A stretch of 64,000 bases of DNA from Loxodes magnus (taxonomy: Eukaryota > Ciliophora > Karyorelictea > Loxodida > Loxodidae). The stretch lies in the NCBI GenBank assembly GCA_946699065.1, contig CAMPDV010000723.1, positions 1 to 64,000 of the forward strand, given 5' to 3'. Position 1 is the first letter of the stretch, and the number at the start of each line of letters is the position of its first letter. The position numbers and the translations under genes are program-made. The notes beneath the pieces were generated by a model. It saw nothing but the letters and a program-made list of their open reading frames with translations, had not been told where the DNA came from and did no database searches. This document shows positions 14,309 through 63,213 of the stretch, piece by piece.

Positions 14309-15380
14309 ATGGAGAAAAAAGAAAAGCAATTTACTAAAATTATTTTTTTAAGAAAACTCTTAAGAGCGAGAAGCCACATTTTAGGGAAAATATCTCTACT
14401 TCATTTTAAGTATGAAATTCTGCCTAACTTATGCTACTAAAAGTTAATAAACAAGATCAGTTATGACCAAAGTAAAGGTATTTCTTTAATATTTTTTAGA
14501 TTAAATCCTTACTGTTCATTCTTCAGCTGTGTTATCGTTATCCATATCAAGTGACCTGAATTGAATAGTATCAAGTTCAGGATATCCTGAAAATTCGATA
14601 AAGATCTGGAATTTCCAGACAGGTGCTCTCCAAAGAACTATAACAGGACATACTTCTAATATTTTATCGGTAGTAATATCCCCAGACTCTAGATATATTA
14701 TATCGGGATCTTTCGATAACACGATAAAGATCTGAAATTACCACAATGGAACTCTCTAAAGAACTATAACGGGACATACTTCCTCAGTTTACTCGGTAGT
14801 AATCTCCCCTGACTCTAACTATATCGTATCAGGATCTTACGATAACACTATAAAGATCTGAAATTTCCTCAATGGTGATCTCCAAAGAACTTTGTCTGGA
14901 CATACTGATATAGTTATATCGGTAATAATCTCCTATGACTCTAGATATATTATATCGGGATCTTGGGATAAAACTATAAAGATTTGGGATTTCTAGACTG
15001 GTCAGCTTGTGCGAACTCTTACTGGGCATTCAGGTTCTGTTTATTCGGTGATAGTGTCTAAGGATAATAGATATACAATATCAGGTTCTGGTGACAGTAC
15101 TATTAAGATATGGGACTTCTCTTCTGGTTAGTGTATTCGTACTCTTTAAGGTCATGTAGACGGTGTATATAGTATTCAGTTAAGTGTTGATTCAAGTGTT
15201 ATCTTTTCTGGTTCATATGACAGAACAATCAAGATATGGAACTTTGATAAGGGTGAGTGTATATAGACTTTGTAAGGGCATACAGATCCAATATCTTCTA
15301 TAGCATTGAGTGTTGATAATAGATGGTTGGTATCGGGAGGATATGACAATACTGTGAGAAAATGGAGCATTTCGAGTTGA
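14309..15380 (+). CDS. WD40 seven-bladed propeller protein, copy A (349 aa, one 22-nt intron)
   Basis: Exon 1 is 14309-14477, the intron is 14478-14499 (GTATTT...TTTTAG) and exon 2 is 14500-15380, ending at TGA. The first ~60 residues are basic and hydrophobic ([39 protein letters not shown]) and match no domain I know. Then come seven repeats of about 42 residues, each with GH ... SPDS/VDS ... SGS-x-D-x-TIKIW. In-frame TGA at 14562, 14733 and 14859 falls on conserved Trp of the WD motif; TAG and TAA occupy Gln positions. The last four blades use only TGG. Such propellers are protein-binding scaffolds in the cytoplasm or nucleus. Relative to copies B and C the framework is conserved, while residues after GH and around the blade Asp differ. 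The ATG is shared by all copies. Confidence 0.9.
14478..14499 (+). other. Spliceosomal intron, 22 nt, WD40 copy A
   Basis: GT...AG boundaries (GTATTTC...TTTTTTAG). Removal joins AAAG to AT, giving Asp, and puts the basic N-terminus in frame with the propeller. The same intron is at the same codon in copies B and C. Length fits the very short introns of ciliates. Confidence 0.85.
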
Positions 15381-27416: not shown

Positions 27417-27431
27417 ATTTATTAAATCACT

Positions 27432-28690
27432 TTAAATATTATTATGTTTTGAATATTTAGTATCTTAAATTAAAAATTACTATATTGTATAATATCCAAA
27501 CATTTATTAAAGGAATGTGAAATTAAAAATTATAGTTTAGTTGTCTAATAATTTAGAATAGAACAAAAAATAGCTCATTATTAAGGTTCTTTATGAAATT
27601 GTGTACTATTACCATTATCGGCTTAGTAGAAACTTTGCTTTTTATTATGCTATATATGTTTCTTTTTATATTGTACGAAATATTTCCCATTTTTTATAGA
27701 TATAATTATAATAGTTATTAACTTACACTTTGTATATTATTTTAATTATACAAAAGATTAAAGCTTTTAACCTTTTTTGATATAATCAAAACTATATTGA
27801 TTTCTTAATTATTTACACTTTCATTTTGCTAATTCTTATTATTTAATATTAGAATATAATTTTATTCTTATTTTAGATGGAATATAAGATAATTTACAAG
27901 AAAGTGAAGATTTTTATAATTTTGCATATATTCAAATTATTTATATAGTTTACTAGCAAATGCTTTTTATATGATAAATAATCAATCTATTTTTTAAAAA
28001 AGCTTTCAGCTTTAATAAAATAGCTTCATTAGAAATTCAAATTTTAAGATTAATAAATAAAATCGATTTTCTACATGCACAGTAGATATGCTTAAGTTGC
28101 TTATAATCAGAAAGTTTATCTTTAAAGCTTTTCTTTTAATATTACAGAATGAGAAAAATTTTAAAGAGAAAAAATACTTAATATAGCAATTTTTCTTAAA
28201 AACTTGTTTTCCTCTTCTAAATTAACATCTTTTCGCAAACTAAAAACAGATAGTTAGTCGTAGTAAGCTCTTTTCAAAACTCTTTTACTAATCTTAAATT
28301 TTTAATATTTTTATAATTATTATAATAAAGCAGAATATTTTTAAACTTGATTAATAAATTTTTGTTTCTATATTTTATATAGTTAGGTTAGATATATTAT
28401 TTGGATCCTTGTTTAATTACTTTTTTTAGATTCTTTGTAAATTGGCATAAAATTTATTATTACAGATGTATTTACCTCATTTTTTTTATTTGATTGATCA
28501 TATTTTTATAAAGAGATTTTTTAGCTCTTTTTAGATTAGTTATTTTTAAAAATTTACAATATCCATTAAAAAAATAGTTTTAAGCCCTCTTATAAAAAAA
28601 AATTTTACTGATTTTGTTTCTTCAAAAATTGTAATTTATTTTTTTATCTTTACTTCTTAAAAGTCATTTAAAAAACTTTTCAAATCTTTT
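27432..28690. repeat. AT-rich left part of block B
   Basis: Shared with 50.55-51.83 kb in block C. T-rich, with no supported gene. It contains no WD40 or LINE similarity. Confidence 0.5.
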
Positions 28691-28699
28691 AAAATTCTA

Positions 28700-30545
28700 T
28701 CCTTTAAGAAAAGGATTTATCCACCCGAAATTCTTTTGTAGCGTATAACTCAGAGCGAAAAAAGGATAATTTTTTCACGATTTCATGGTTATTTTATTAT
28801 ATCTCCTTTTTTCTTGAGATCCTTTTCATTTAAGTAAATTATTATAATATTAAAAATTTTAAAACAAATTTTTTCATTTACTAGAAAAGATGTTCAAAAT
28901 TAAAAATTGTATTTTTTCCAAAGCATAAACAATAAATTTTTTTTATAATTTCAAACATAATTAACCTTATCAAAAATATACTTTTAAATAAAAAAGAAAA
29001 AAGTTTTTTTTTTAATTTTTAAACAAATTTTCTTAAAAGCAAAAACATTTTTTTAATTTTTACAAAATACCATTTCAACAAAAAAAATTTCCAAATTCTA
29101 TTTTAATAAAATCTTTTTTTAATTCCTATTTTTTCTCAAAAATCTTTTATATTTGGAATTTTTTCTTGAAATTTTATTCCTATTTTAAAATTTTTATCCC
29201 GAAAAAATTAAATTTATTCCGTGCCGAAAATCTTTGGTAGTGTAAAACGCTGAGCAAAAAAACAAATTTTTTATTTTCATGTAATTTAAGCTCTAAAATT
29301 GAAAGATAATGATAAATAAAAAACTTAATATCAAAAAATTTTATAATCCATTCGGAAACGAAACATATTAAAATAAAAATTTATTATTGAACTTAAACAC
29401 AAGAATAAACAAATTTAAATAAATTTATTAACATATAACTTAAAAAATTAAATTAGCATCCAAAAATTCAAATTTTTTTTAGTTTTAAGTCTATTTAAAA
29501 AAAAAACCTATTTTACATATTAAAAAAATGTATCCCGTCCCAGAAATATTTATCAAAAAAAGTTTTCAAAAAAATTCCTTAAAAAAAATTTAAAGATTTT
29601 TAAAATTAATTTCCAAATTTAATTTCCAAATTTAATTTCCAAAACGATTTTAGATAATTATTTTCAAAATTATTTTAGAAACGCTTTTCTAAGAAATTTT
29701 AAAAACTTTTTTTAAATTTACTTTCAAAAAATTTATTCCTATTTAGAATTTTTTATCCCAAAATAATTAAATTTATTCCTATTTAGATTTTTTTATCCCG
29801 AAATCAAAAAATTTATTCCTATTTAGAATTTTTTATCCAGAAATAAAAAAATTTATTCCGTCCCAGATATCTTTGGTAGTGTAAAACGCTGAGCAAAAAA
29901 AGAAATTTTTTATTTTCATGAAATTTAAACTCTAAAATCGAAAATTAATGATAAATAAAAAACTTAATATCAAAAAATTTTATAATCCAATCGGAAACGA
30001 AAAATATTAAACTTAAATATTAAAATTTTATAATATCAATAAATAATAATAATCAATCATAAAAAATAAATAATAAAAAAACAAAATTTAATTTAATTTA
30101 AAATAAATAAAATAAATACTTAATTAAATTTTTTAATTAATAATAAAGATTATAAACTTACTTCACCTTATAAATAATATTTTAACCACTTCACAAAAAA
30201 AATGAAAATTTATACTCAACTTGAAATTTTTACTAAATCTAAAAATAAATCCATAAAATTTTATAGCATAAATTTAAACTTTAACTTATTTCATTCTTTC
30301 ATTTAACAAAATTATATTTTAAATATTTTTAAACATCACCCAGTTTAAATCAACATACCTCACTAATTTCTTTAACCTATCACTCAAACTTTTTTTTAAA
30401 CCAATAATATTTAACAATATAACAAATTTTTAATTAATAAATTAAAAAACTTCATATAACTAAAAACATTATTAACATTAAACATTCATTTAAATGCATT
30501 ACCAATATCTTATATCTTTAATCGTAAAATTAAATTAAGTCAAAT
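28700..30545. repeat. Downstream arm of WD40 copy B with direct repeats
   Basis: Two units of about 160 bp (29214-29375 and 29854-30015) carry CTTTGGTAGTGTAAAACGCTG followed by AGCAAAAAA, a long A/T part and ATCGGAAACGAAA. A partial third unit lies at 28720-28790. Between the units short motifs TTATTCCTATTTAGA and TTTTTATCCCGAAAT repeat. The same order occurs in blocks A and C. Confidence 0.7.
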
Positions 30546-30555
30546 CATAAGTTAC

Positions 30556-31639
30556 TCAACTCGAAACTCTCCATTTTCTTATCATATTGTCAAGTCCTCC
30601 CGATACCAACCATCTATTATCAACACTCAATGCTATAGAATCTATTGCATATTTATGCCCTTATAAAGTCTATATACACTCACCCTTATCAAAGTTCCAG
30701 ATCTTGATTGTTTCATCGTAAGATCCAGAAAATATAACACTTGAATCAACACTTAACTGAATACTTCATACATAACTTGAGTGACCTTGAAGAGTACGAA
30801 TACACTAACCAGAAGAGAAGTCCCATATCTTAATAGTACTGTCAACATAACCTGATATTATATACCTATTATCCTTAGACACTATCACCGATAAAACTGA
30901 GTCTGAATGCCCAGTAAGATTTCGCAAAAGCTGACCAGTCTAGAAATCCCAAATCTTTATAGTTGTATCAGAAGATCCCGATATAATATATCTAGATTCA
31001 TAGGAAATTACTACCGATATAACATATGAAGTATGACCCGACAAAGTTCTTTGGAGAGCACCATTGAGGAAATTTCAGATCTTTATAGTAGTGTCTTCAG
31101 ATCCTGATATAATATATCTAGAGTCTGGGGAAATTACTACCGAGGTAACTCTAGAAGTATGTCCCGTTATAATTCTTAGGATAGCACCAGTCTATAAGTT
31201 TCAGATCTTGATCGTGTTATCAGCAGATCCTGATACTATATAGCTAGAGTCTGAGGATATTACTACCGAGTTAACTGAGGAAGTATGTCCCGTTAAAGTT
31301 CTTATGAGAGCACCTGTCTGGAAATTCCAGATCTTTATAGAATTTTCTGGATATCCTGAACCTGATACAATTCAATTCAGGTCACTTGATATGGCTACCG
31401 ATAGCACAGCTGAAGTGTCAGTAAGGACTTAGTCTAAAAAATATTAAAGAAATACCTTTACTTTGGTCATAACTGATCTTGTTTATTAACTTTTAGTAGC
31501 ATAAATTAGGCAGAATTTCATACTTAAAATGAAGTAGAGATATTTTCCCTAGGATGTGGCTTCTCGCTCTTAGGAGTTTTCTTAAAAAAATAATTTTAGT
31601 AAATTGCTTTTCTTTTTTCTCCGTTTCTTTTTTCTCCAT
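30556..31639 (-). CDS. WD40 seven-bladed propeller protein, copy B (353 aa, one 22-nt intron)
   Basis: Exon 1 is 31456-31639, the intron 31434-31455 and exon 2 30556-31433, ending at TGA (30556-30558). The frame is intact with TAA/TAG = Gln and TGA = Trp at 31372, 31201, 31075 and 30766 (first bases on the + strand). All four sit at Trp positions: three in the WD/SIKIW places and one as V-W-SIQ, where copy C has W in the equivalent site of blade 7. The N-terminus has a five-residue duplication (EKKETEKKEKQ) absent in copy A. In blade 1 the usual LTGHS is changed to LTDTS, losing the GH. It differs from A and C mainly at blade-surface positions, for example GHKYAIDS and GGLDN in blade 7. Confidence 0.9.
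31434..31455 (-). other. Spliceosomal intron, 22 nt, WD40 copy B
   Basis: Same sequence type and position as in copy A (GTATTTC...TTTTAG on the - strand). Splicing joins AAAG to AC, again giving Asp. Confidence 0.85.
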
Positions 31640-33120
31640 TTTAATTTTTATAACTTACTTCAATAAATATTTAATTAAAATAACTCAATTAATTTTACTT
31701 ACTTAATTTCAATACAATTAAACAATTAAATTATTTATTAAGCATACTTATAAATATCTTCTAAAACATTGATTTTTCTATTTTTGTCTTAAAAAAAGAC
31801 AAGATAATAAACTAATAGTGTACAAACTTTTACAATTTTAATTATTTTATATCCTTTTACTTTTAAATATAAGGATAATTTATTATATCAAAAGTTTTAT
31901 AACGAAGAATTATATCCTTATTATAATAACTTTAATATGCATTTATTAGTTACTACTTATTTGTGCTTTAAATCAAAGACTCTTAATAAGAAAACCTTAT
32001 TTCTTTGTAAATTAATTTAATTGATAAATAAAATATTACAATTCTTTTAAAAGCTACTGTTATTAATTATTGTTTTTCACTTACATTTAATCAAAAAAAT
32101 TATTTATTTAATCTTTTTACTAATTAAAAAAGTAAATAAAATAAGTTTCTTATTAATTAGTTTGAATAAATATTAAAAAACATAAAATTATTTAAAACAA
32201 AACATTTTTAGAATTTATAATATAAACTCTTTTAATTGTCCACTTTTTTACTACTATTTAATTAAAACTTTTTATTTATAAAAGTCTCTCTTATAATTAT
32301 AAACTAATATAATTACTTATAATGTTGATTCTAAGCAAAATATATAAATGTAATAAATATAAGTAGTAGAAAGTAAATATTTAAACTAGCTATAAATGGT
32401 GTATCACTAATTTTATCTTACAATTATTAAATAGTAATATTTAATTTTATTATTAAAATAAGCTTTAATATGTTTAATTATGTCTATTAAATACTTAATA
32501 TTTTATCCTTTTAGCTTTATTAGTTATTAATTAATTTCTCTTTAATTTAGATATTAGATTAGTTATAATTAATACATTTAGATAACTTTCTCTTTTTTCA
32601 GCAAACTAATATTATATTTATTATTTATGTTATTTTTGTAATTATCATTTCTAATTAATAATACCTAAATTATTCTAGATTATTTAAAGATAAAAACTTA
32701 ATTCTATTATTCTATACTTATCCAAAAAACATAATTACCACTATTAATACTCTCTTTCTTAAAATTAGTTGTTTGTTACTAAGAAAATTATAAGCTTTTT
32801 TAAGAAAGAAAGCATATTTTTACTATCTTCTATTATTATTTTCTGAATTAATAGAAAGAGTAAACTTAACATAATATGTTTCTTTGTAGTATTAGATAAT
32901 ATAAGTATTAGATTAGCTAATATAAGTTATTTAAAACTAAAATTAAAGCCACAATAAATCCTAGTCTAGTTGACTTTAGTCATAAAATTTAAAAAGAATA
33001 CAGTCTTTAGTAGTAATAAGAAAGTATTTAAATAAACATAATGAAAGTGAGAAAAAAATTAAACCTACAAGATAAGAGTTTTAAAGCTTAAATTTAAATT
33101 TATTAATTAAAAGATTTAAG
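31640..33120. repeat. Upstream arm of WD40 copy B
   Basis: AT-rich, shared with the left arm of block A (inverted) and with block C. The stretch directly 5' of the ATG is conserved in all three copies and presumably holds the promoter, but I cannot name elements. No gene is supported. Confidence 0.5.
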
Positions 33121-33124
33121 AATA

Positions 33125-33943
33125 TCATTTGCTATCTAGAATGAAATAGCTGCTAAACTTTAATTTTTTTCTGAATAAATTAAAATAATCAATTGCAACC
33201 AAAAGGCATGTTTGATATTTAAAAAATATTTAAGTTTGCAAGTAGTTACAAATTGGATATTGAGCATGGTTTAACAAGTACTTCTTAAGAAAAATAGAAT
33301 AACAAAAGTTTTATAGAAGAATAAATATTATAGAATTCCAGTGCTTCTAAATAGAAAAAAAAGAAGTCACTAAAATTTAATTAATCAAAGTCTTAAATAA
33401 AAAAGTTGTGATTAAATGAGAAATGTACATGTCCAAAGGGGTTGCCAAAATGTCTACTTTGAACTTATAAATCTAAGAATTGTCCTTTTGAAAAAACAAA
33501 AAAATGTAAATCCTTCTAGAACTAGAATATTCAATGGCTTTTATAAAATTTAGATTGAAATATTCATGCAATAGCTCGATATCTAAATTCTCAAAGTAGC
33601 ATAATTTTACACACTCTTTAAGTTTTTCAATTTCTTGATTATCTTAAATCAAAAATTTTCAGTTACGTTTATTTTTTATTCTCTTAGGAATATAAAAATT
33701 GCTGTCTTTTTCTCCAACTTTGCAATATCTTAGATTGAATTTGCTGCTTCATTCACTACACTATTCAATAGGCATAAATTTAAATCCCAAAACTACAAAA
33801 GCATTCATACTTTAGTCTCTTGAAAGCATTATCAGTTTAATCCTTTATAGATCTATCTGCTTAACTTCCCTTTTCTTAATTTAGATCATACTACTCTATT
33901 TTGATTTTCCTTATATCTTTAAGCTAAAATAAACCTAAAACAT
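33125..33943 (-). CDS. Unknown protein, about 272 aa (block B copy)
   Basis: One - strand frame from ATG 33943 to TGA 33125-33127 is continuous. The N-terminal part is charged (IKKREVKQIDLQRIKLI). The core reads naturally: MNAFVVLGFKFMPIEQCSEW, YCKVGEKDSNFYIPKRIKN, EIEKLKECVKLCYFENLDIE and KFKVDILATPLDMYISHL. In-frame TGA occurs in CSE-W-SS and KRN-W-KF and would be Trp. The C-terminal 80 residues are hydrophobic in this frame. ATG at 33889 or 33808 are alternative starts. I do not recognise a family. Block C has a one-base difference in the C-terminal third, so the true C-terminus is unsettled. Confidence 0.6.
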
Positions 33944-34499
33944 TAACTACCATAAAAAAGCATTAAAGCTAGATTTTATTTTTAAATTAGTTTAATATAC
34001 TTATTAGCAAATATCTTGTAAATAAAAGCTTAGAATGAAATATATAGTATATTTAAAGGTTTAATGTATCTTGTTAGTTTATTAAGATACATAAATAAGA
34101 AGTATTATACAGAATTAGGCTATCTTTAATTAAAGATACTGAGTCTAGTAATCTTAATAATATATTAATTTAACTAGTAATGCTCCAATAAATAATCAAT
34201 TAAATACTTTAATGGATTTATTAACTCTGAGGCTAGTACTTTGAAGTTGTTTTTTGGTCAGTTTGAACTTGCTTTCTTCTCTAATCATTTCAATTTACTG
34301 CTCATTGATATGTAGTTCCTCGCTCTTACACTTAGTTTGTCTTTCTTTAACATAAATTTTAAGAAGATAAACTGAAAGAAACTAAGCCAGCAACTAAACT
34401 ATCTTAATTGATTCATATAAGCAAACAGCTACTTTGAAGTTAAATCTACTTCCTAGCCTCAATATTGTAAATCTTCTAAAAAAGAATCATATGAAGTTG

Positions 34500-35672
34500 T
34501 TTATTTTCTTTTACGAAAAGCTTTAAAATAAATTTACAAATCTTTTTTGTTTTAAGCTCCAGATTCCACTTATTAGGTAAGTAAATGATATATATGTTCC
34601 TTAATCCTTAAATCTTATAGCTTAAATTTATTATTTTTTTGCTTTTTTCTTCCTTCTCAAAGAAAGTTGTTTAGTATCTTTTTACTGCTAGATTAAACTC
34701 CTCATTGTAGCGTAGCTCTGAGACTAAACTTGCAATTTAAAAAATTGAAAGCAGGGAGTTTAAAAATTTTTTACTAGTCAACTTTACTTGGCAGTTATAT
34801 TCAGCATGTTAAAAACAATAGGAGACTCATTGAGATTCTTTAATTTTAAATATCTATCGTTGATGGGATATTCCTATACTTTTTTCTTTTTTTAATTCCT
34901 TTAGTTCAAACTATTCTTTCATAGTAATAATTCTTCTAAACCTCTGATGGTTTTATCAGATAATCTTTAAACTATATTTAGTTTCTTTCAAATCTACCCG
35001 TTTATATCCAACGAGGTCTGGATTAAAAGCTAACCGTCTATTTCGTTTCTATCTTTGAAGATGTGACTTTATTTTAAAGATTAAGTTTCATACTGGGAAT
35101 GTTTTGTTTTTGGTATTTCGTCTTTTTCTGTTTCTTTGATTTTATTCGGGTATCAGGCTTAATATTATATATATCAAAATATAGCGAAAAAACTTCCAAA
35201 GCTTGATTAGTCTTCTATATATTTTTCTGTTTATCAAGCATTTCTAACTACAAAAATATCGCAATTCTAGCAATGAAGTTAAGTAGAAATCAGACAGCAA
35301 TTTAATGTTCTCCGCAGCCTTCATCAAAGAGTTCAAAATTTTTAGCAATCCTTAGAGAAATTAACATCACTAATAAGAATCTCTCGTTTGGAAGTATTTG
35401 AGGCTTTTAAATATTTCTTAGATGAATTCATAGACAAAACCAGTCAAGCAATTAATGACAAATATAAGATTGTCCAAATACCTCGCTTTATCTTAATTTT
35501 AAGCTCATTCTTAGTGTCTATTATTTGCTTCATTCAACATTCTCTACTTTTTACTAAAATTTGGACTATAGAAATTGATATCTGACTCTGTCTTTTAGAT
35601 CACTGTTTCTTATTAGAATAGAATTAAATTTTCATCTTGCTGACTTTTCTTTAATGTTCCTTTATTCACCAT
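34500..35672 (-). pseudogene. Eroded - strand gene, unknown (block B copy)
   Basis: From ATG 35672: MVNKGTLKKSQQDENLILFQ, then QKTESDINFYSPNFSKKQRM and NRHQEWAQNQDKARYLD. Further in, the best reading changes frame: ALEVFSLYFDIYNIKPDTRI, then LAFNPDLVGYKRVDLKETKY, then LSDKTIRGLEELLL and YLKLKNLNESPIVFNMLNI. Each piece is convincing, but they lie in three frames, so the gene is broken or has introns I cannot define. No domain is recognised. The copy in block C is almost identical, so the breaks predate the duplication. Confidence 0.45.
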
Positions 35673-35679
35673 ATAAAGA

Positions 35680-36661
35680 TCTAAAGGAATTGCCAATAAA
35701 CAACTTCAAGTAAGTTTTTAAGCTTCACATATTACTAGACTAGACTAAGGTTTTTATTAGATCTCACTATCTTGAATCTATTAAACTGATTGGTATTCAA
35801 ACGTAGTAAGCTAATTACACCTCACTCACTATAACTACAAATAATGGTAAACCTTAATATATTTAAAAGAAGTAAAAGCTTGTTATTTTAATAGCAACTT
35901 ATTTTAACCTAAATAGACAAATAATTAGATATTAAAGTAGCAAGGATATAAGATTAACAACCTAGCTTAATTAACTAATCACTATATCCTAATTTTAATA
36001 GCCTAGCATTATTATATTACAGTTACTAAGACTATTAGCAACCCTTTATTTTAACAAAGCAGCTTATTAGTATTATATATTTAGTGCTTTAATGTAAAGA
36101 CTATAAGAGATATACTTATAACATTTAAATAATTATTAACCATGTATCTTAGTAATAGCACATCTATATACTATTGTAGAACTTTTAATTTTATAGTGGA
36201 AATAGTTAATATGCTTAATTTATTATATTTTTGGTTATTAAACAATATAATGCTAAAAAGGCTAAAGACTTTTTTAAAAAAACTAATACAAAATTTTATC
36301 CTTCAAACAAATTCCTGGAATACAAATTCTATCAATATTGGAATTTTCGCAAAAGATTTACCCAATAGGTGGAAAATTCTAAAGAGCCTTAAATGATTAT
36401 TTCTTTTATCCATAGGCTATTAGCAAACAGACTTGAATAATATTGTACGACTTTATAATTATAATATGTTAGATTAAAAGTGAAGATTAGTAAGATTCTT
36501 AAGAAATAATATAACTAGGAATAAAGCTAAAATATCAATTCCATTTTGAGGGTTTCTAATACTTATTTACTAATAAGTATCGAATAGCATTTATTTGATA
36601 ATTATAAACTTGATAGTGTTTGTTTAATATAATATAGAGAAGGTATTAAAACATTTTGTTA
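35680..36661. repeat. Right end of block B, no firm gene
   Basis: AT-rich. A standard-code ORF at 36142-36396 (+) ends in SWNTNSINIGIFAKDLPNRW and could be a remnant, but contains none of the TAA/TAG Gln codons typical of genes here and has no partner motif. It is identical in block C (59157-59411). Confidence 0.35.
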
Positions 36662-36869
36662 AAAGTAATAATTAGCTAAACTTAAATAAGTCAAAATAAT
36701 AATAGAAAACAAAGATTTATTATTTGCTATTAAGCTTCTTATATTAGTTATAAACTTAATTAATTAATATAAGCCATATATTAGACCAGGTAATAGCAAA
36801 ATAATTACTATCACTAAAAGAATGTAGTTTTACCATGCTTTTTCCTTACTAAAAATTAATAAATAATAG

Positions 36870-46199: not shown

Positions 46200-48135
46200 A
46201 CTTAACCATCTTTAAGATCTTGCAATAATTTTGAATATTTCACTTTCTTATCTATTTCTCTTATCCTCATGATATTACTCCTTTTATATCTCCAGTCAGC
46301 ACTAATTCGTAAATTTCTCCCTAATATCCTTGTAATAATATTAGCCTCTCATCTGTTTAGAAATTCCATATTTTTATAATGTGTCATATTATCCAGATAT
46401 TATAAACTTATTGTTAGTTGTTATTAGTAATATTCTCACTAAATTTGTATGGCCTTCTAAAGTTCGTATGCTTTTTTTTGTTGGAAAGTTTCATATTTTG
46501 ATTGTTTTGTCATAACCTCCAAATATTATGAGTTTTTTTCATGATTAAATTCTATTGTTCTTATCGAATCTTTATATCCTTAGAGAATTCGAATACATTA
46601 ACCAGTTGAAAAATTTCATATTTTTATAGATTAATCAGAACTTTCCGAAACGATTCATTTGCTACCATTATTGATCTAGCATAATTCGTGTGTCCCATCA
46701 AAGTACTTTTTAAGGTCACATTCAAAAATTCCCATACTTATATTGTACTAGCATAACTTCCCGAAACTATTTATTTCTAGTCCTTCTTTGCAGCTATCGA
46801 TAAAACTTCACTCGCTCGTTCGGTCAAAGTACTCTTATAGAACTCACTCGGAAAATCAAAAATCTTTATAATCGAATCGTTATTTCCTGATATGATTATT
46901 TCAAGTCACTCGTGATCGCTATCGAATAAATTTAATCCATATGTTTCAACAAAGTATCAAGAAATTGTGGCAATTCGTATTACATCTTAGTTTAATTTAC
47001 TCCATTTAAATTGCAGTTGGTTAGCTTCGCATTCTTCATATTCCTTAGATTGATCTCTTTTAAATTTGAGTTTCTTAGATTACAATCTTGAAAATTTGAT
47101 TCACTCAATTAGCACCTTAGATTCTTATTCCCTCAAATCTTTTTTATATAAAATTATAGTTAAAACATTTTAAGATTGCTATCGCATTTGCAGAAGCTTA
47201 TTCTGCTTTGATATCAGCCTTAGATAATTCTATGATATCATTCAATTTTTTTTATCAAACCTTAACTTGATAACTGTTTGAATTTAATCAAAACATTTTA
47301 ATTATTACATATGTTAGAAAAATTTAAAGGCTTTTCTTACAAATTAGCATTTTTCAAAACTTTATTTTAAAATTTTTCTAATAATTTAGCAACATTCTCT
47401 ACTGTTAATAGTGTAAAATAATATTTAATTTATTATTTAAAATATTTATTTAATATATCTGTAATATTATAATGTTATGGATTTTAATTCTGCACTTTTC
47501 CGCAATAAAATTCATAACGATAAAATAATTTTAATTAACTGATCTGAAATTTAATTAACATTTACTTCTTCATTTTTAACTTAGTTATATTTCTAAATCA
47601 TTAACTTTATCTGTTTGTATTGATATTTAATTATATCTAATAATGCTACTATTTTTTCTTATTACTATCTAGTTTATGATGGTAAATGTAATGCTTTTTC
47701 TAAATTTTAAATTATTTCTTCGATTTTTCTTATATTATTTTATAATTCCCTCTAATATTATTTAAGGTTTGAAGTACATACTTAATTGATGATATTGGAA
47801 AAGAGTTTTTAGATCATCAATATAACTTTAATGAAGTTAGTTTACTATATCTTTTATTATTTTAATATTTGCAAATAATTCTATAAATTTTCATTTAGTT
47901 TTGCTTTTTATTGAAACTCATTAGTTTCTTCTCAAATTTTTCAGTTGAAATCTAGTCTTTTAACTCAGATATTTAGCCTTTAAATATTTACTAATGTGTT
48001 TTACAAAATATTTATTGAGCGATATAAGGCCAATTTTAATGCACTTTGAACACATTAAGCAACTATATTGAAGTATATTAGGAATTCTTTTCTAAGAACC
48101 AAATTATTTTTTAGGACTTTTATAATTTTACTAAT
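46200..48135 (-). pseudogene. Coiled-coil / pentapeptide-repeat / WD40 protein, frameshifted pseudogene
   Basis: Read from 48135 downward. First comes a helical N-terminal region with heptads (KEFLIYFNIVAQCVQSALKL; EETNEFQQKAKLNENLQNYL). Then ENVAKLLEKFQ...IKKIENDIIELSKADIKAEQ and SANAIAILKCFNY. Near 47120-47000 are pentapeptide repeats of A/S-N-L/F type (LSESNFQDCNLRNSNLKEIN; LTNCNLNGVN). From about 46900 come WD40 blades (IISGNNDSIIKIFDF; QIVSGSYASTIQVWEF; IVSESSDQSIKI-TGA-NFSTGQCIR; IIFGGYDKTIKI-TGA-NF). At least five frame changes make it nonfunctional. It is a distant relative of the intact WD40 copies with a longer N-terminal architecture, which resembles NTPase-less remnants of signalling-type WD40 proteins. 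That last point is inference. Confidence 0.65.
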
Positions 48136-50539: not shown

Positions 50540-51830
50540 TTTTATTTATTTTAAATAAAGCACTTTAAATATTATTATATTTATGAATATTTAGTATTTT
50601 AAATTAAAAATTACTATATTGTATATTAAACCAAACATTTATTAAAGGAATGCTTAAATTATCAATTATAATTTAGTTGTCTAATCATTTAGAATCAAAC
50701 TAGCTCATTATTAAGGTTCTTTATGAAATTGTGTACTATTACCATTATCGGCTTAGTAGAAACTTTGCTTTTTATTATGCTATATATGTTTCTTTTTATA
50801 TTGTACGAAATATTTCCCATTTTTTATAGATATAATTATAATAGTTATTAACTTACACTTTGTATATTATTTTAATTATACAAAAGATTAAAGCTTTTAA
50901 CCTTTTTTGATATAATCAAAACTATATTGATTTCTTAATTATTTACACTTTCATTTTGCTAATTCTTATTATTTAATATTAGAATATAATTTTATTCTTA
51001 TTTTAGATGGAATATAAGATAATTTACAAGAAAGTTAAGATTTTTATAATTTTCCATATATTCAAATTATTTATATAGTTTACTAGCAAATGTTTTTATA
51101 TGATAAATAATCAATCTATTTTTTAAAAAGCTTTCAACTTTAATAAAATAGCTTCATTAGAAATTCAAATTTTAAGATTAATAAATAAAATCAATTTTCT
51201 ATATACATAGTAGATATATTCAAGTTGCTTAAAATCAGAAAGTTTATCTTTAAAGCTTTTCTTTTAATATTACAGAATGAGAAAAATTTTAAAGAGAAAA
51301 AATACTTAATATAGCAGTTTTTCTTAAAAAACTTGTTTTCCTCTTCTAAATTAACATCTTTTCGCAAACTAAAAACAGATAGTTAGTCGTAGTAAGCTCT
51401 TTTCAAAACTCTTTTACTAATCTTAAATTTTTAATATTTTTATAATTATTATAATAAAGCAGAATATTTTTAAACTTGATTAATAAATTTTTGTTTCTAT
51501 ATTTTATATAGTTAGGTTAGATACATTATTTAGATCCTTGTTTAATTCCTTTTTTTAGATTCTTTGTAAATTGGCCTAAAATTTATTATTACAGATGCAT
51601 TATACCTCATTTTTTCTACTTGATTGATCATATTTTTATAAAGAGATTTTTTAGCTCTTTTTAGATTAGTTATTTTTAAAATTCGTAATATCTATTAAAA
51701 AGGTAGTTTTAAGCCCTCTTATAGAAAAAATTTTTTAACTAATTTATTTCTTCCTAAAATTGTAATTTATTTTTTTATATTTACTTCTTAAAAGTCATTT
51801 AAAAAACTTTTCAAATCTTTTAAAATTCTA
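50540..51830. repeat. AT-rich left part of block C
   Basis: Counterpart of 27432-28690, with small indels. No gene supported. Confidence 0.5.
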
Positions 51831-51834
51831 TCCC

Positions 51835-53670
51835 TTTAAGAAAAGGATTTATCCATCCCGAAAATCTTTTGTACCGTATAACTCAGAGCGAAAAAAGGAT
51901 AAATTTTTCACGATTTCATGGTTATTTTATTATATCTCCTTTTTTCTTGAGATCCTTTTCATTTAAGTAAATTATTATAATATTAAAAATTTTTAAAACA
52001 AATTTTTTCATTTACTAGAAAAGATGTTCAAAATTAAAAATTGTATTTTTTCCGAAGCATAAACAATAAATTTTTTTTATAATTTCAAACATAATTAACC
52101 TTATCAAAAATATACTTTTAAATAAAAAAGAAAAAAAGTTTTGATGAAAATTTTTCAAAAAATTTTCTTAAAAACTAAATTTTTATTTAATTTTTACAAA
52201 AAACCATTTCAACAACAAAAAATTTCCAAATTCTATTTTAATATAAAATTTTTTTAATTCCTATTTTTTCTCAAAAATCTTTTATATTTGGAATTTTTTC
52301 TTGAAATTTTATTCCTATTTTTAAATTTTTTATCCCGAAATAATTAAATTTATTCCGTGCCGAAAATCTTTGGTAGTGTAAAACGCTGAGCAAAAAAACA
52401 AATTTTTTATTTTCATGAAATTTAAGCTCTAAAATTGAAAGATAATGATAAATAAAAAACTTAATATCAAAAAATTTTATAATCCAATCGGAAACGAAAC
52501 ATATTAAAATAAAAATTTATTATTGAACTTAAACACAAGAATAAACAAATTTAAATAAATTTATTAACATATAACTTAAAAAATTAAATTACCATCCCAA
52601 AATTCAAAATTTTTTTAGTTTTAAGTCTATTTATAAATTAAAACTCTTTTTTACATATTAAAAAAATGTATCCCGTCCCAGAAATATTTATCAAAAAAAG
52701 TTTTCAAAAAAATTCCTTAAAAAAAATTTAAAGATTTTTAAAATTAATTTCCAAATTTAATTTCAAAAACGATTTTAGATAATTATTTTCGAAATTATTT
52801 TAGAAACGCTTTTCTAAGAAATTTTAAAAACTTTTTTTAAAATTACTTTCAAAATTTTTATTCCAATTTTATAATTTTTTATCCCGAAATCAAAAAATTT
52901 TATTCCTATTTAGATTTTTTTATCCCGAAATAATTAAATTTATTCCGTCCCAGATATCTTTGGTAGTGTAAAACGCTGAGAAAAAAACAAATTTTTTGTT
53001 TTCATGAAATTTAAGCTCTAAAATCGAAAGATAATGATAAATAAAAAACTTAATATCAAAAAATTTTATAATCCAATCGGAAACAAAAAATATTAAACTT
53101 AAATATTAAAATTTTATAATATCAATAAATAATTAATAATTAATAATAATAATAATAAATAATAAATAATAAATAATAAATAATAATAATCAATCATAAA
53201 AAATAAATAATAAAAAAACAAAATTTAATTTAATTTAAAATAAATACTTAATTAAATTTTTTCAACTATAATTAAGATTATTAACTAACTTTGCCATAAT
53301 AAATAATATTTTAACCACTTCACAAAAAAAATGAAAATTTATACTCAACTTGAAATTTTTACTAAATCTAAAAATATATCCATAAAATTTATAGCATAAA
53401 TTTAAACTTAAACTTATTTCATTCTTTCATTTAACAAAATTATATTTTAAATATTTTTAAACATTACCACTTTAAATCAACATACCTCACTAATTTCTAT
53501 AACCTATCACTCAACCTTTTTTTTAAACTAATAATATTTAAGAATATAACAAATTTTTAATTAATAATTAAAAAACTTCATAAAGCTAAAAACATTATTA
53601 ACATTAAACATTCATTTAAATGCATTACCAATATCTTATATCTTTAATCGAAAAATTTAATTAAGTCAAA
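51835..53670. repeat. Downstream arm of WD40 copy C with direct repeats and an AATA microsatellite
   Basis: The GTAGTGTAAAACGCTGAG units lie at about 52350-52505 and 52940-53097, with a partial unit at about 51855-51925. An (AATA)n/(ATA)n tract at about 53130-53190 is expanded relative to block B. Confidence 0.7.
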
Positions 53671-53681
53671 TAGCAAGTTAC

Positions 53682-54768
53682 TCAACTCGAAACTCTCCAC
53701 TTTCTAATAGTATTGTCCCATCCTCCCGATACCAACCATCTATTATCAACACTCAATGCTATAGACCATATTGATCCTGTATGCCCTTATAAAGTCTAGA
53801 TACACTCACCCTTATCAAAGTTCCATATCTTGATTGTTCTGTCATATGAACCAGAAAAGATAACACTTGAATCAACACTTAACTGAATACTATATACACC
53901 ATCTACATGACCTTAAAGAGTACGAATAAACTAACCAGAAGAGAAGTCCCATATCTTAATAGTACTGTCACCAGAACCTGATATTGTATATCTATTATCC
54001 TTAGACACTTTTACCGATAAAACTTAGCCTGAATGCCCAGTAAGATTTCGCAAAAGCTGACCAGTCTAGAAATCCCAAATTTTTATAGTTTTATCACGAG
54101 ATCCCGATATAATATATCTAGAGTCATAGGAGATTACTACCGATATAACATATGAAGTATGTCCCGACAAAGTTCTTTGGAGATCACCATTGTGGAAATT
54201 TCAGATCTTTATAGTGTTATCGTAAGATCCCGATACAATATAGCTAGAGTCTGGGGAGATTGCTACCGATCTAACGAAGGAAGTATGTCCCGTTATAGTT
54301 CTTTGAAGAGCACCAGTCTATGAATTTCGGATCTTTATAGTTTAGTCAGAAAATCCTGATACGATATAGCTAGAATCAGGGGAGATTACTACCGAGTTAA
54401 CTGAGGAAGTATGTCCTGTTATAGTTCTTATGAGAGCACCTGTCTGGAAATTCCAGATCTTTATAGAATTTTCAGGATAGTCCGAACCTGATACAATTCA
54501 ATTCAGGTCACTTGATATGGATACCGATAACACAGCTGAAGAGTGACCAGTGAGGACTTAGTCTAAAAAATATTAAATAAATACCTTTACTTTGATCATA
54601 ACTGATCCTATTTATTAACTTTTAGTAGCATAAGTTAGGCAGAATTTCATACTTAAAATGAAGTAGAGATATTTTCCCTAGTATGTGGCTTCTCGCTCTT
54701 AGGAATTTTCTTAAAAAAATAATTTTAGTAAATTGCTTTTCTTTTTTCTCCGTTTGTTTTTTCTCCAT
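53682..54768 (-). CDS. WD40 seven-bladed propeller protein, copy C (354 aa, one 22-nt intron)
   Basis: Exon 1 is 54585-54768, the intron 54563-54584 and exon 2 53682-54562, ending at TGA. The frame is intact with TGA = Trp at 54498 and 54201 (first bases on the + strand). In blade 2 the Trp of KIW is CGA (Arg) and the next Phe is Ser, so that blade has lost its structural Trp. The N-terminus reads [20 protein letters not shown]. Blades 4 to 7 keep SGS-x-D-x-T...KIW/RKW with TGG. Surface residues differ from A and B (blade 7: GHTGSIWS and GGWDN; blade 3: GHTSFVRS). Blade 6 is identical to copy A although other blades are not. The gene sits between conserved upstream and downstream arms, like copy B. 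Confidence 0.9.
54563..54584 (-). other. Spliceosomal intron, 22 nt, WD40 copy C
   Basis: GTATTTA...TTTTAG on the - strand, at the same codon as in copies A and B, with one internal substitution. Confidence 0.85.
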
Positions 54769-54769
54769 T

Positions 54770-56130
54770 TTAATTTTTATAACTTAATTCAATAAATATT
54801 TAATTAAAATAACTCAATGAATTTTACTTACTTAATTTCAATACAATTAAACAATTAAATTATTTATTAAATATATTTATAAATATCTTCTAAAAAATTG
54901 ATTTTTCTATTTTTGTCTTAAAACAAGATGAGATATAAAACTAATAGTGTACAAACTTTTACAATTTTAATTATTTTATTTCTTTTACTTTTAATAAAAG
55001 GATAAGTTATTATATCAAAAGTTTATAAAGAAGAATTATATCCTTATTATAATAACTTTAGTATGCATTTATTTAATTACAACTTATTTGTGCTTTAAAT
55101 CAAAGACTCTTAATAAGAATAACTTATTTCTTTATAGACCCTTTTAAATAATAAATAAAATAAGTTTCTTATTAATTAGTTTGAATAAATATTAAAAAAC
55201 ATCAAATTATTTAAAAAAAAGTATTTTTAGAATTTATAAGATAAACTCTTTTAATTGCCCACTTTCTTACTACTATTTAATTAAAACTTTTTATTTATAA
55301 AGGTCTCTCTTATAATAATAAACTAATATAATTTATTTTAATGTTGATTCTAAGCAAAATATATAAATGTAATAAATATAAGTAGTAGAAAGTAAATATT
55401 TAAACTAACTATAAATGGTGTATCACTAATTATATCTTACAATTATTAAATAGTAATATTTAATTTTATTATTAAAATAAGCTTTAATATGTTTAATTAT
55501 GTCTATTAAATACTTAAAATTTTATCCTTTTAGCTTTATTAGTTATTAATTAATTTCTCTTTAATTTAGATATTAGATTAGTTATAATTAATACATTTAG
55601 ATAACTTTCTATTTTATAGCAAACTAATATTATATTTATTATTTATGTTATTTTTGTAATTATCATTTCTAATTAATAATACCTAAATTATTCTAGATTA
55701 TTTAAAGATAAAAACTTAATTCTACTATTCTATTCTTATCCAAAAAACATAGTTATCACTATTAATACTCTCTTTCTTAAAATTAGTTGTTTGATATTTA
55801 GAAAATTATAAGCTTTTTTAAGAAAGAAAGCATATTTTTAATATCTTCTATTATTATTTTCTGAATTAATAGAAAGAGTAAACTTAACGTAATATGTTTC
55901 TTTGTAGTATGAGATAATATAAGTATTAGATTAGCTACTATAAGCTATTTAAAACTAAAATTAATGTCACAATAAAGTCTAGTTGGTTTTAGTCATAAAA
56001 TTTAAAAAGAATACAGTCTTTAGTAGTAATAAGAAAGGATTTAAATAAACATAAAGAAAGTGAGAAAAAAATTAAACCTACAAGATAAGAGTTTTAAAGC
56101 TTAAATTGAAATTTATTAATTAAAAGATTT
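54770..56130. repeat. Upstream arm of WD40 copy C
   Basis: Counterpart of 31640-33120. About 100 bp present in block B near 32020-32120 are missing here (near 55140), giving a length difference. No gene supported. Confidence 0.5.
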
Positions 56131-56137
56131 AAGAATA

Positions 56138-56957
56138 TCATTTGCTATCTAGAATGAAATAGCTGCTAAACTTTAATTTTTTTCTGAATAAATTAAAATA
56201 ATAAATTGCAACCAAAAGGCATGCTTGATATTTAAAAAATATTTAAGTTTGCAAGTAGTTACAAATTGGATATTGAGCATGGTTTAACAAGTGCTTCTTA
56301 AGATAAAATAGAATAACAAAAGTTTTATAGAAGAATAAATATTATAGAATTTCAGTGCTTCTAAATAGAAAAAAAAGAAATCACTAAAATTTAATTAATC
56401 AAAGTCTTAAATAAAAAAGTTGCTATTAAATGAGAAATGTACATGTCCAAAGGGGTTGCCAAAATGTCTATTTTGAACTTATAAATCTAAGAATTTTCCT
56501 TTTGAAAAAACAAAAAAATGTAAATCCTTCTAGAACTAGAATATTCAATGGCTTTTATAAAATTTAGATTGAAATATTCATGCAATAGCTCGAGATCTAA
56601 ATTTTCGAAGTAGCATAATTGTGCACACTCTTTAAGTTTTTCAATTTCTTGATTATCTTAAATCAAAAATTTTCAGTTACGTTTATTTTTTATTCTCTTA
56701 GGAATATAAAAATTGCTGTCTTTTTCTCCAACTTTGCAATATCTTAGATTGAATTTGCTACTTCATTCACTACACTATTCAATAGGCATAAATTTAAATC
56801 CCAAAACTACAAAAGCATTCATACTTTAGTCTCTTGAAAGCATTATCAGTTTAATCCTTTATAGATCTATCTGCTTAACTTCCCTTTTCTTAATTTAGAT
56901 CATACTACTCTATTTTGATTTTCCTTATATCTTTAAGCTAAAATAAACCTAAAACAT
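56138..56957 (-). pseudogene. Unknown protein, block C copy, frameshifted relative to block B
   Basis: ATG 56957 opens the same protein as 33943-33125 in block B, with a few substitutions (for example V to I and D to E in the core). An extra T near 56303 moves the C-terminal third into another frame, which reads EALVKPCSISNLQLLANLNI. It is unclear which copy carries the ancestral C-terminus; the block C reading is at least as natural. Confidence 0.5.
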
Positions 56958-57514
56958 TAACTACCATAAAAAAGCATTAAAGCTAGATTTTATTTTTAAA
57001 TTAGTTTAATATACTTATTAGTAAATTTCTTGTAAATAAAAGCTTAGAATGAAATATATAGTATATTTAAAGGTTTAATGTATCTTGTTAGTTTATTAAG
57101 ATACATAAATAAGAAGTATTATACAGAATTAGGCTATCTTTAATTAAAGATACTGAGTCTAGTAATCTTAATAATATATTAATTTAACTAGTAATGCTCC
57201 AATAAATAATCAATTAAATACTTTAATGGATTTATTAACTCTGAGGCTAGTACTTTGAAGTTGTTTTTTGGTCAGTTTGAACTTGCTTTCTTCTCTAATC
57301 ATTTCAATTTACTGCTCATTGATATGTAGTTCCTCGCTCTTACACTTAGTTTGTCTTTCTTTAACATAAATTTTAAGAAGATAAACTGAAAGAAACTAAG
57401 CCAGCAACTAAACTATCTTAATTGATTCATATAAGCAAACAGCTACTTTGAAGTTAAATCTACTTCTTAGCTTCAATAATGTAAATCTTCTAAAAAAGAA
57501 TAATATGAAGTTGT

Positions 57515-58687
57515 CTATTTTCTTTTACGAAAAGCTTTAAAATAAATCTATCAAATGTTTTTTGTTTTAAGCTCCAGATTCCACTTATTAGGTAAGTAAA
57601 TGATATATATGTTCCTTAATCCTTAAATCTTATAGCTTAAATTTATTATTTTTTTGCTTTTTTCTTCCCTTTTAAAGAAAGTTGCTTATTATCTCTTTAC
57701 TGCTAGATTAAACTCCTCATTGTAGCGTAGCTCTGAGACTAAACTTGCAATTTAAAAAATTGAAGGTAGGGAGTTTAAAAATTTTTTACAAGTTAGTTTT
57801 ACTTGGCAGTTATATTCAACATGTTAAAAGTAATAGGAGACTCATTGAGATTCTTTAATTTTAAATATCTATCGTTGATGGGATATTCCTATACTTTTTT
57901 CTTTTTTTAATTCCTTTAGTTCAAACTATTCTTTCATAGTAATAATTCTTCTAAACCTCTGATGGTTTTATCAGATAATCTTTAAACTATATTTAGTTTC
58001 TTTCAAATCTACCCGTTTATATCCAACGAGGTCTGGATTAAAAGCTAACCGTCTATTTCGTTTCTATCTTTGAAGATGTGACTTTATTTTAAAGATTAAG
58101 TTTCATACTGGGAATGTTTTGTTTTTGGTATTTCGTCTTTTTCTGTTTCTTTGATTTTATTCGGGTATCAGGCTTAATATTATATATATCAAAATATAGC
58201 GAAAAAACTTCCAAAGCTTGATTAGTCTTCTATATATTTTTCTGTTTATCAAGCATTTCTAACTACAAAAATATCGCAATTCTAGCAATGAAGTTAAGTA
58301 GAAATCAGACAGCAATTGAATGTTCTCCGCAGCCTTCATCAAAGAGTTCAAAATTTTTAGCAATCCTTAGAGAAATTAACATCACTAATAAGAATCTCTC
58401 GTTTGGAAGTATTTGAGGCTTTTAAATATTTCTTAGATGAATTCATAGACAAAACCAGTCAAGCAATTAATGACAAATATAAGATTGTCCAAATACCTCG
58501 CTTTATCTTAATTTTAAGCTCATTCTTAGTGTCTATTATTTGCTTCATTCAACATTCTCTACTTTTTACTAAAATTTGGACTATAGAAATTGATATCTGA
58601 CTCTGTCTTTTAGATCACTGTTTCTTATTAGAATAGAATTAAATTTTCATCTTGCTGACTTTTCTTTAATGTTCCTTTATTCACCAT
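57515..58687 (-). pseudogene. Eroded - strand gene, unknown (block C copy)
   Basis: Nearly identical to 34500-35672, with the same three-frame structure. A 65-codon standard-code ORF on the + strand (58403-58600) is its antisense. Confidence 0.45.
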
Positions 58688-59685
58688 ATAAAGATCTAAA
58701 GGAATTGCCAATAAACAACTTCAAGTAAGTTTTTAAGCTTCACATATTACTAGACTAGACTAAGGTTTTTATTAGATCTCACTATCTTGAATCTATTAAA
58801 CTGATTGGTATTCAAACGTAGTAAGCTAATTACACCTCACTCACTATAACTACAAATAATGGTAAACCTTAATATATTTAAAAGAAGTAAAAGCTTGTTA
58901 TTTTAATAGCAACTTATTTTAACCTAAATAGACAAATAATTAGATATTAAAGTAGCAAGGATATAAGATTAACAACCTAGCTTAATTAACTAATCACTAT
59001 ATCCTAATTTTAATAGCCTAGCATTATTATATTACAGTTACTAAGACTATTAGCAACCCTTTATTTTAACAAAGCAGCTTATTAGTATTATATATTTAGT
59101 GCTTTAATGTAAAGACTATAAGAGATATACTTATAACATTTAAATAATTATTAACCATGTATCTTAGTAATAGCACATCTATATACTATTGTAGAACTTT
59201 TAATTTTATAGTGGAAATAGTTAATATGCTTAATTTATTATATTTTTGGTTATTAAACAATATAATGCTAAAAAGGCTAAAGACTTTTTTAAAAAAACTA
59301 ATACAAAATTTTATCCTTCAAACAAATTCCTGGAATACAAATTCTATCAATATTGGAATTTTCGCAAAAGATTTACCCAATAGGTGGAAAATTCTAAAGA
59401 GCCTTAAATGATTATTTCTTTTATCCATAGGCTATTAGCAAACAGACTTGAATAATATTGTACGACTTTATAATTATAATATGTTAGATTAAAAGTGAAG
59501 ATTAGTAAGATTCTTAAGAAATAATATAACTAGGAATAAAGCTAAAATATCAATTCCATTTTGAGGGTTTCTAATACTTATTTACTAATAAGTATCGAAT
59601 AGCATTTATTTGATAATTATAAACTTGATAGTGTTTGTTTAATATAATATAGAGAAGGTATTAAAACATTTTGTTAGAAAAAAAA

Positions 59686-62160: not shown

Positions 62161-63213
62161 ATGGGACATATAAATATTAATGGAATAGCGAGCAAGTGCT
62201 TGAATATTGAAGAATTTATCAGAGATAACTGTATAGATATTTTATCAATAAACGAAACCTGATAAAAAGATGACTTTCCTCCAATATTGATAAATGGATT
62301 TAAAACATATTTTAAGAACTCAGGAAAAGGAGGAGGTGTATGCTTAATTGTAGGAGAAGAATTTAATAGTACAGAAATACATATATAAGTTGAAAAAAAA
62401 AGATTCATAACAATTAAACTGGATAATACTTTAATCACGTCTTGTTACATGCCTGATAATGGAAAAAGTTAAGATGTTAAAGATTTAGCTTATGAACAAC
62501 TAAATACATTGCTGAATTTATATAATGATAATCCACATATACTAATGGGAGATTTCAATGCTCTTTTATAAGGCTTCGGTGATAATCCTGAAAATGCTTA
62601 TGATAATAACATTAGACTATAAGAATTCTTACTATAAAACGATCTTGAGATAGTGAATGATAGCAACATTAATACATGTATTCACAAAGGAACAGGAAAA
62701 ACGTATTGTAATGATTATATCATTATAAACAACCATTTGAACGTTAATTAGTTTGCAAATTTCACTGCTCATAATAATAGTTTATTTTCTGATCATATTC
62801 CAATCACTGTCGACTTTATCAATAATTCTATAGTATATTGGGAAAAGATAACTCAGAGAAAATATAAAATAAATAGGTTATAAGATGCAATAGATAGATA
62901 AAAATATTAAGAATCTTTCCTACAAACTTATCTAGAATTCTTTTAAATAGATTAAGATAATCTTGAAGATTAATATGAATGCATCAAAAGTAATATTTAA
63001 GACAATGCTGATCAAACATTAGGTTCGTTTATTCCAGACTCAAATTATAACAAACTTCCTCGAGCTCGCACAAAGAAATATATAGAGGCAAAAAGAGCTA
63101 ACTCAGAATATAAGGAAGCTCACATAAAATTTGGAAGAATAAACTAGCAAGTAATTAATCTTCATGAGGTAGCAAAACGACTTTGGAAAGACTTCAAGTA
63201 TAATCTATGAAAA
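62161..63213 (+). CDS. LINE ORF2, apurinic-type endonuclease domain
   Basis: The frame from ATG 62161 is continuous for 350 codons. Motifs in order: NINGIASK (residues about 4-11), LSINET-TGA-QKDDFPP with the catalytic Glu and TGA where the 20-kb copy has TGG, KNSGKGGGVCLIV, ITSCYMPDNG, HILMGDFNALLQGFG with catalytic Asp/Asn, CNDYIII and SDHIPITVDF with the catalytic Asp-His. This is a complete set for the exonuclease-endonuclease-phosphatase fold used by APE-type LINEs. After LGSFIPDS and KRLWKDF the frame breaks at 63210 before RT. Upstream codons are also open, so the true start may be earlier. Confidence 0.8.

Follow-up and report, generated by a model that had tools for sequence, protein, structure and literature searches.

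To our knowledge, little is understood of the ways in which ciliates and other unicellular eukaryotes recognise one another, their symbionts or their pathogens. A 64,000-nucleotide stretch of Loxodes magnus DNA (contig CAMPDV010000723.1; hereafter the window) carries three WD40 genes, copies A, B and C, which raise the question of whether they belong to a recognition system. A sequence-only reading had noticed that residues just after the GH of each blade and flanking the blade Asp change between the copies, had likened this to the fungal HET-D/HET-E NWD proteins, and had proposed a ciliate recognition or self/non-self repertoire carried in duplicated segments.

The singled-out interval at 53682-54768 (minus strand) is exactly one gene, copy C, with the ATG at 54768 and the stop TGA at 53684-53682. 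It encodes 354 residues, namely 61 basic and near-invariant residues followed by seven WD40 blades. The splice model of copy C is a prediction from frame, motif and conservation. Copy A (14309-15380, plus strand) and copy B (31639-30556, minus strand) have the same build, and all blade words quoted for the three copies are present (TDPIS/KYAID/TGSIW, GGYDN/GGLDN/GGWDN, SSVYS/SRVTS/SFVRS and GSWDK/GSSDT/GSRDK). The CDS of copy A recurs identically on contigs C2073 and C4398. Residues 26-49 of exon 1 are identical in 73 of 73 aligned rows, which are the top-scoring relatives with A and C each entered twice; a few changes appear in a wider sample.

Table 1. Positions of the genes, their parts and the duplicated segments in the window.
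Feature	Position	Strand	Remark
Copy A exon 1	14309..14477	+	15-bp in-frame shorter form
Copy A exon 2	14500..15377	+	seven blades; stop 15378-15380
Duplicated segment with copy B	27423..36664		
Copy B exon 2	30559..31433	-	seven blades; stop 30558-30556
Copy B exon 1	31456..31639	-	
Duplicated segment with copy C	50556..59680		
Copy C stop TGA, context-dependent	53682..53684	-	same single codon in 73/73 rows
Copy C exon 2	53685..54562	-	seven WD40 blades, variable part
Copy C blade 7	53786-53685	-	
Copy C blade 6	53912-53787	-	
Copy C blade 5	54038-53913	-	
Copy C blade 4	54164-54039	-	
Copy C blade 3	54290-54165	-	
Copy C blade 2	54416-54291	-	
Copy C blade 1	54548-54417	-	
Copy C putative intron	54563..54584	-	22 bp, GT..AG, frame shift by one
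Copy C exon 1	54585..54768	-	constant 61-residue basic N-terminal region; ATG and splice model

According to the genome paper (PMC11441545), the L. magnus macronuclear assembly is repeat-rich, has 706 Mbp, uses code 27, in which TGA is Trp or stop, and has introns with a mean of 19.3 bp and a mode of 17 bp. The family fits this code: TAA and TAG encode Gln, and TGA stands for Trp when distant from the end of the gene but for stop at the end itself. The 69 aligned copies hold 277 in-frame TGA codons, 68 at the hypervariable positions defined below and 209 in the framework. The latter are confined to six columns, all of them WD40 Trp positions, where the remaining 205 codons are TGG (197) or encode Gln, Leu, Cys or Arg (8). 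No in-frame TGA or TAA was found in the final 20 codons of the 69 copies. The terminal TGA in 85 of 85 gene models is no separate evidence, because the parser demanded TGA there. The intron was 22 bp long in 82 of these models and 23 bp in the other 3. Contamination was rejected on the in-frame TAA, TAG and TGA codons, the tiny introns and a GC content of 15-27% per 2 kb across the window, and a ciliate origin is supported.

Pfam assigns exon 2 to WD40 (PF00400; 7 stretches, 3e-80). An AlphaFold model of exon 2, made from an alignment of the three window copies, has a pLDDT of 96.4, a pTM of 0.92 and 28 strands, and Foldseek matches it to the seven-bladed entries 7big, 7bie and 7bif with TM 0.89-0.95. 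A seven-bladed WD40 beta-propeller is predicted with high confidence. Exon 1 gave no Pfam family over the cut-off, the one hit being a sub-threshold zinc knuckle (15.9 versus 27 bits), and residues 1-64 gave 6 candidates in the protein collection, none at E <= 0.001. With the whole protein we obtained 5980 homologs at E <= 0.001 among 8000 scored. Where a name is given among the best 120 of them, it is mostly cyanobacterial, in a few cases fungal and in one that of a moss; no protein of the 120 is more than 53% identical, and most cover about 80% of the query, corresponding to the propeller, with a few reaching 92-98%.

We searched the whole assembly (705,730,643 bases, 7843 contigs) for relatives. 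A 35-mer from exon 1 gave 1542 matches at up to 3 mismatches, and one from blade 6 gave 1445, each with 0 matches of the reversed control. In the protein search, 124 of 43,878 candidate places were scored, each aligned in a single frame to no less than residues 1-318 of a query of 323 residues; copy C itself aside, they were 78-84% identical to the copy C query. Sequences were read for all but 54 of the 124. Examination of 91 loci yielded 81 strictly intact models. Their length of 348-354 residues is consistent with seven blades, and they represent 69 distinct CDS, each encoding a distinct protein, most of them drawn from a search ranked by similarity to copy C. The other 10 loci were frameshifted (4) or rejected by the strict parser (6). 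Among the rejected six, L072, L074 and L079 are open throughout, L012 and L086 have exon 1 out of frame, and L097 carries an insertion. In blade 2 of L097 (contig C237), unrelated sequence breaks the propeller. Alleles or duplicate contigs of a single locus may be counted among the loci; identical CDS occur on separate contigs.

When exon-1 hits were sampled regardless of exon 2, 16 of 20 were intact; all 20 had 0 mismatches in 35 bases, so that exon 1 was conserved by choice in this sample. Six exon-2 hits comprised three that read through (one six-bladed), one with five blades and without the ATG, one frameshifted and one off frame. Read by eye, L100 (C229) has six blades and L099 (C124) has five, so blade number can change. 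Family members are regularly spaced at about 14.83 kb on C750 and about 18.9 kb on C477, which suggests tandem arrays of large units, each with further sequence.

We numbered each blade from the G of GH as position 1, so that positions 5 and 7 flank a conserved V6 and positions 23 and 25 flank a conserved D24. These four positions in seven blades make up 28 hypervariable (HV) codons. In the 69 copies the median entropy was 2.13 bits at the 28 HV codons and 0.15 at 244 other propeller codons (Mann-Whitney p = 1.6e-18, with 14 codons at positions 3-4 set aside), and 24 of the 28 most variable propeller codons were at position 5, 7, 23 or 25. Their pN was 0.547, 0.499, 0.484 and 0.355, respectively. 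Pooled pN/pS, as uncorrected pairwise counts on recombining sequences with TAA/TAG taken as Gln and TGA as Trp, was 0.468/0.269 at the four positions, 0.261/0.213 at positions 3-4, 0.056/0.173 in the framework and 0.038/0.141 in the N-terminus. The loops of the opposite face (13-16, 33-36) had a pN of 0.073, and the neighbour codons 6, 8 and 24 had 0.078, 0.020 and 0.015. The 69 distinct CDS carry 60 distinct 28-residue surfaces. The HV residues (n = 1932) are rich in Asn (11.7%), Ser (11.6%), Tyr (11.6%), Trp (8.3%), Arg (8.2%) and Gly (7.2%), which is the kind of composition known for binding surfaces.

The sites after GH and around the blade Asp, where the sequence-only reading had placed the changes, hold most of the variation. 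It had also described framework residues and even codons as conserved; for the residues this stands (framework pN 0.056), for the codons it was too strong (framework pS 0.17). Variation is concentrated at the HV codons and not spread evenly over framework and surface, and pN/pS is not near 1 everywhere. In the AlphaFold model, positions 5 and 7 occupy the d-a loop and the beginning of strand a, and positions 23 and 25 lie between strands b and c, in the b-c turn. The model, which had been proposed for placing the variable sites, supports their location on the upper face, the face being assigned from strand order and not from measured coordinates.

Diversity of this kind could also be produced without selection, by a mutator targeted to the HV codons. 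As such a mutator would predict, replaced codons often differ at more than one base, and HV pS is somewhat elevated (0.269 versus 0.173). However, it would raise pS equally with pN, the adjoining codons 6, 8 and 24 are rarely replaced, and no mechanism was seen; we give this explanation hardly any credence. In the exon-1 sample, where 15 of the 16 intact copies entered the codon alignment (the parser left out L079), HV pN was 0.533, which is 2.62 times the gene-wide pS (bootstrap 2.40-2.81), and the pN of bottom-face loops was 0.108. For 35 long-flanked copies, taken from the hits most like copy C, we also compared the genes with their surroundings (595 pairs, 700 bp per side). Flank divergence was 0.076, HV pN 0.420, framework pS 0.149 and framework pN 0.046, and HV pN exceeded flank divergence in 584 of the 595 pairs. 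Since framework pS is higher than near-flank divergence, part of the excess in exon 2 reflects conversion with diverged donors and not selection alone. Flank divergence climbs to about 0.15-0.25 (about 0.10-0.27 per bin) beyond about 1 kb upstream and about 1.8 kb downstream, still below HV pN; because of this climb, constraint or homogenisation may be acting on the near flanks. Between -900 and +1700 around the gene, the non-coding flanks of 36 copies mostly showed less than 10% mean divergence per 60-bp bin. Being conserved near the gene and more diverged outward, the repeated unit has a conserved core.

The same comparison bears on whether the units are a selfish or passive repeat, spread by segmental duplication, with surface loops that drift under relaxed constraint and have no recognition role. 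The genome is large and repeat-rich (PMC11441545), tandem spacing on C750 and C477 is regular (about 14.8 and 18.9 kb, respectively) and some copies are broken, all of which such a repeat would show. Yet relaxed constraint cannot lift pN above pS and above near non-coding divergence, the framework pN/pS of about 0.3 indicates purifying selection, 16 of 20 sampled copies are intact, and the conserved codons 6 and 24 lie between hypervariable ones. We regard this explanation as very improbable. Judged from the sequences, selection on residues fits the HV pattern and the quiet neighbour codons better than a mutator or relaxed constraint. Diversifying selection, as had been suspected, is supported by an HV pN above both pS and near-flank divergence.

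Copies with near-identical flanks carry replaced blocks of about 200-600 bp within exon 2, of the kind that gene conversion would leave. Loci L031 and L049 match almost perfectly between -600 and +350 and again from +960 to about +2000, and differ by 4-17 positions per 60 bp in between; they diverge again upstream of -900, so the flank identity is itself mosaic. The pairs L018/L049 and L022/L042 have shorter replaced blocks at about +540 to +800. Association between variable sites (excess MI) was 0.246 two codons apart and about 0.11 at greater distances inside a blade. At long range it was 0.09, and 37-44% of distant pairs still had z > 3. Since this long-range association persists, the copies share descent as well as exchange. 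The four-gamete fraction was 0.38 under 10 bp and 0.54-0.60 beyond, levelling off after 10-30 bp, and in a PHI-like test 0 of 500 permutations were as low as the observed value. Conversion between blades, for which a test had been suggested, turned out to be minor, with swaps in 9 of 897 half-blade segments of the 69 copies, among blades 1-4. With so few blade-to-blade swaps, exchange is mainly from gene to gene at the same blade.

That the copies lie in duplicated segments was confirmed by aligning the segments with copies B and C (Table 1). Their aligned stretches are 94.7% and 98.1% identical and the gene-bearing stretch 90.2%; divergence per 250 bp is 0-8.4% outside exon 2 and 9-11% across it. 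Six-frame Pfam scans for a partner gene in the duplicated unit gave nothing at E <= 0.001 in 37.0-41.6, 49.0-53.6 and 55.1-59.7 kb. The scan of 44.5-49.1 kb had as its sole find a diverged WD40 gene, accompanied by a match to pentapeptide repeats. This propeller runs across three frames at 46370-47115 (minus strand), with the PF00805 match (4.6e-5, over the cut-off) just upstream, and is probably a degraded gene of a different kind. Single-frame Pfam scans of 19 long open frames, again for a partner gene, gave only an endonuclease-reverse transcriptase. It lies in an open frame at 62263-63210 (plus strand; PF14529, 2.6e-11) and represents a LINE-like element close to the duplicated segments.

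In a second class of WD40 sequence, a 126-bp unit coding for 42 residues is repeated in long tandem arrays on contigs C1503, C119, C9, C1832, C620, C272 and C6957 (L001-L008), with open frames of up to 2899 residues. A 35-mer of this unit had 4107 matches genome-wide and 0 for the reversed control. Across 134 units of C1503 the framework hardly changes; the variation is mainly at positions 5, 7, 23 and 41-42, with less at 25, 2 and 3. These arrays look unlikely as direct donors to the propeller family because their framework differs from it.

The comparison with fungal NWD proteins held for the pattern and failed for membership. In the family protein, whose 354 residues are all propeller except 61, we found no NACHT or NB-ARC domain and no known N-terminal effector domain (HET, HeLo, PNP_UDP and others), and NWD/STAND NLR identity was rejected. 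Genome-wide, 31 weak NACHT matches and 2 NB-ARC matches were found, none read as attached to the WD40 family; the NACHT search also gives matches in 11 of 14 control genomes. Paoletti et al. 2007 (PMC1805685) report strong positive selection on codons 7, 9, 25 and 27 of the Podospora NWD repeats, which surround the conserved codons 8 and 26 and lie in the d-a loop and the b-c turn. Once an offset of 2 is allowed for, they coincide with the Loxodes positions 5, 7, 23 and 25. We learned of the published positions after a first look at 73 copies, and the independent test is the exon-1 sample fetched later, which reproduces the variation at these four positions. According to that paper, the Podospora anserina genes (HET-D, HET-E, HNWD; STAND/NLR) resemble the Loxodes family in the WD40 repeats with the same four hypervariable codons, the two conserved codons between the variable ones, the held framework and the exchange between genes. 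In contrast to them, the Loxodes genes lack NACHT/NOD and a HET-type effector, reside in a ciliate, mostly have seven blades in one propeller with each blade retaining its own identity, and occupy more than 1000 places, compared with ten genes in Podospora.

The shared positions would also suit strict self/non-self recognition in allorecognition or mating, with loci that are polymorphic among individuals and recognise conspecific partners as HET-D/HET-E do. However, more than 1000 co-resident places per genome resemble a receptor pool and not an allelic incompatibility locus, and a death effector domain is absent; such a role appears quite unlikely. Fungal NLRs with WD, ANK or TPR repeats likewise show positive selection (Dyrka et al. 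2014, PMC4986451), at those positions of their superstructure-forming repeats that face the ligand. They are multi-domain STAND proteins, whereas the Loxodes protein is a stand-alone propeller whose N-terminus has no outside match. Among open-licence papers we found none joining Loxodes and WD40 and, among the titles listed, recognised none on a ciliate WD40 repertoire or WD40 gene family expansion; 'WD40' is absent from the main text of the L. magnus genome paper (PMC11441545).

Among the nearest solved structures, in sequence and fold, are highly repetitive natural or designed WD40 propellers such as 2ymu, WRAP-T (7big/7bie) and Tako8. Unlike the Loxodes family, these have near-identical blades within one protein and form no gene family with selected surface sites. 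WDR5 shares the propeller fold (TM 0.93-0.95 among the Foldseek matches listed), and its peptide-binding pocket presumably uses residues at the equivalents of positions 7 and 23. Unlike the Loxodes family, it is encoded by just one conserved gene and its binding site is fixed.

WD40 adaptors are common, and the propellers might be interchangeable substrate or cargo subunits of one machine that binds the exon-1 region, such as a ubiquitin ligase or trafficking complex, their diversity tracking the cargo. The constant N-terminal region joined to a variable binding face, and a propeller that stands alone without a signalling domain, are what such adaptors would look like. Adaptors of CUL4-DDB1 (DCAF/DWD) carry a W[DN]x[RK] (WDxR) motif. 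This was present in 0 of 69 copies, and a DDB1 adaptor was rejected by this motif. No F-box or BTB occurs among the Pfam matches listed for copy C (25 of 53 families) or for exon 1 alone, and cargo adaptation alone would seldom yield such diversifying selection or copy number. We consider adaptors of this kind unlikely.

We think that the family is probably an intracellular recognition repertoire in Loxodes. Each gene would couple the constant 61-residue N-terminal region of exon 1 to the seven-bladed propeller of exon 2, and in the model four residues per blade, 28 in total, would line the top face as a combinatorial binding surface. Genes would be multiplied by segmental duplication, a demonstrated step. 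Gene conversion between copies would swap blocks of exon 2 and re-sort the variable residues, as demonstrated by the replaced tracts and the decay of association. Diversifying selection would retain replacements at the 28 codons and keep the fold constant, as demonstrated by the pN above pS and above near-flank divergence. The propeller surface may bind varied, fast-changing partners, that is pathogen, symbiont or self molecules, and the constant region may couple binding to a common partner.

More tentatively, and with somewhat less than even confidence, we suggest that these genes form a germline-encoded receptor pool of constant-plus-variable design, in which one near-invariant exon is combined with more than 1000 variable propeller exons, whose diversity comes from gene conversion and from selection at 28 surface codons. 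As far as we know, it would be the first large anticipatory repertoire for recognition in a ciliate, NLR-independent and with exactly the same variable positions as fungal allorecognition proteins by convergence. The family is a concrete candidate for ciliate recognition, with a defined membership, defined variable residues, a constant region and a diversification mechanism. If this is true, two distant lineages would have turned to one fold, and to the same four positions in it, for diversified recognition.
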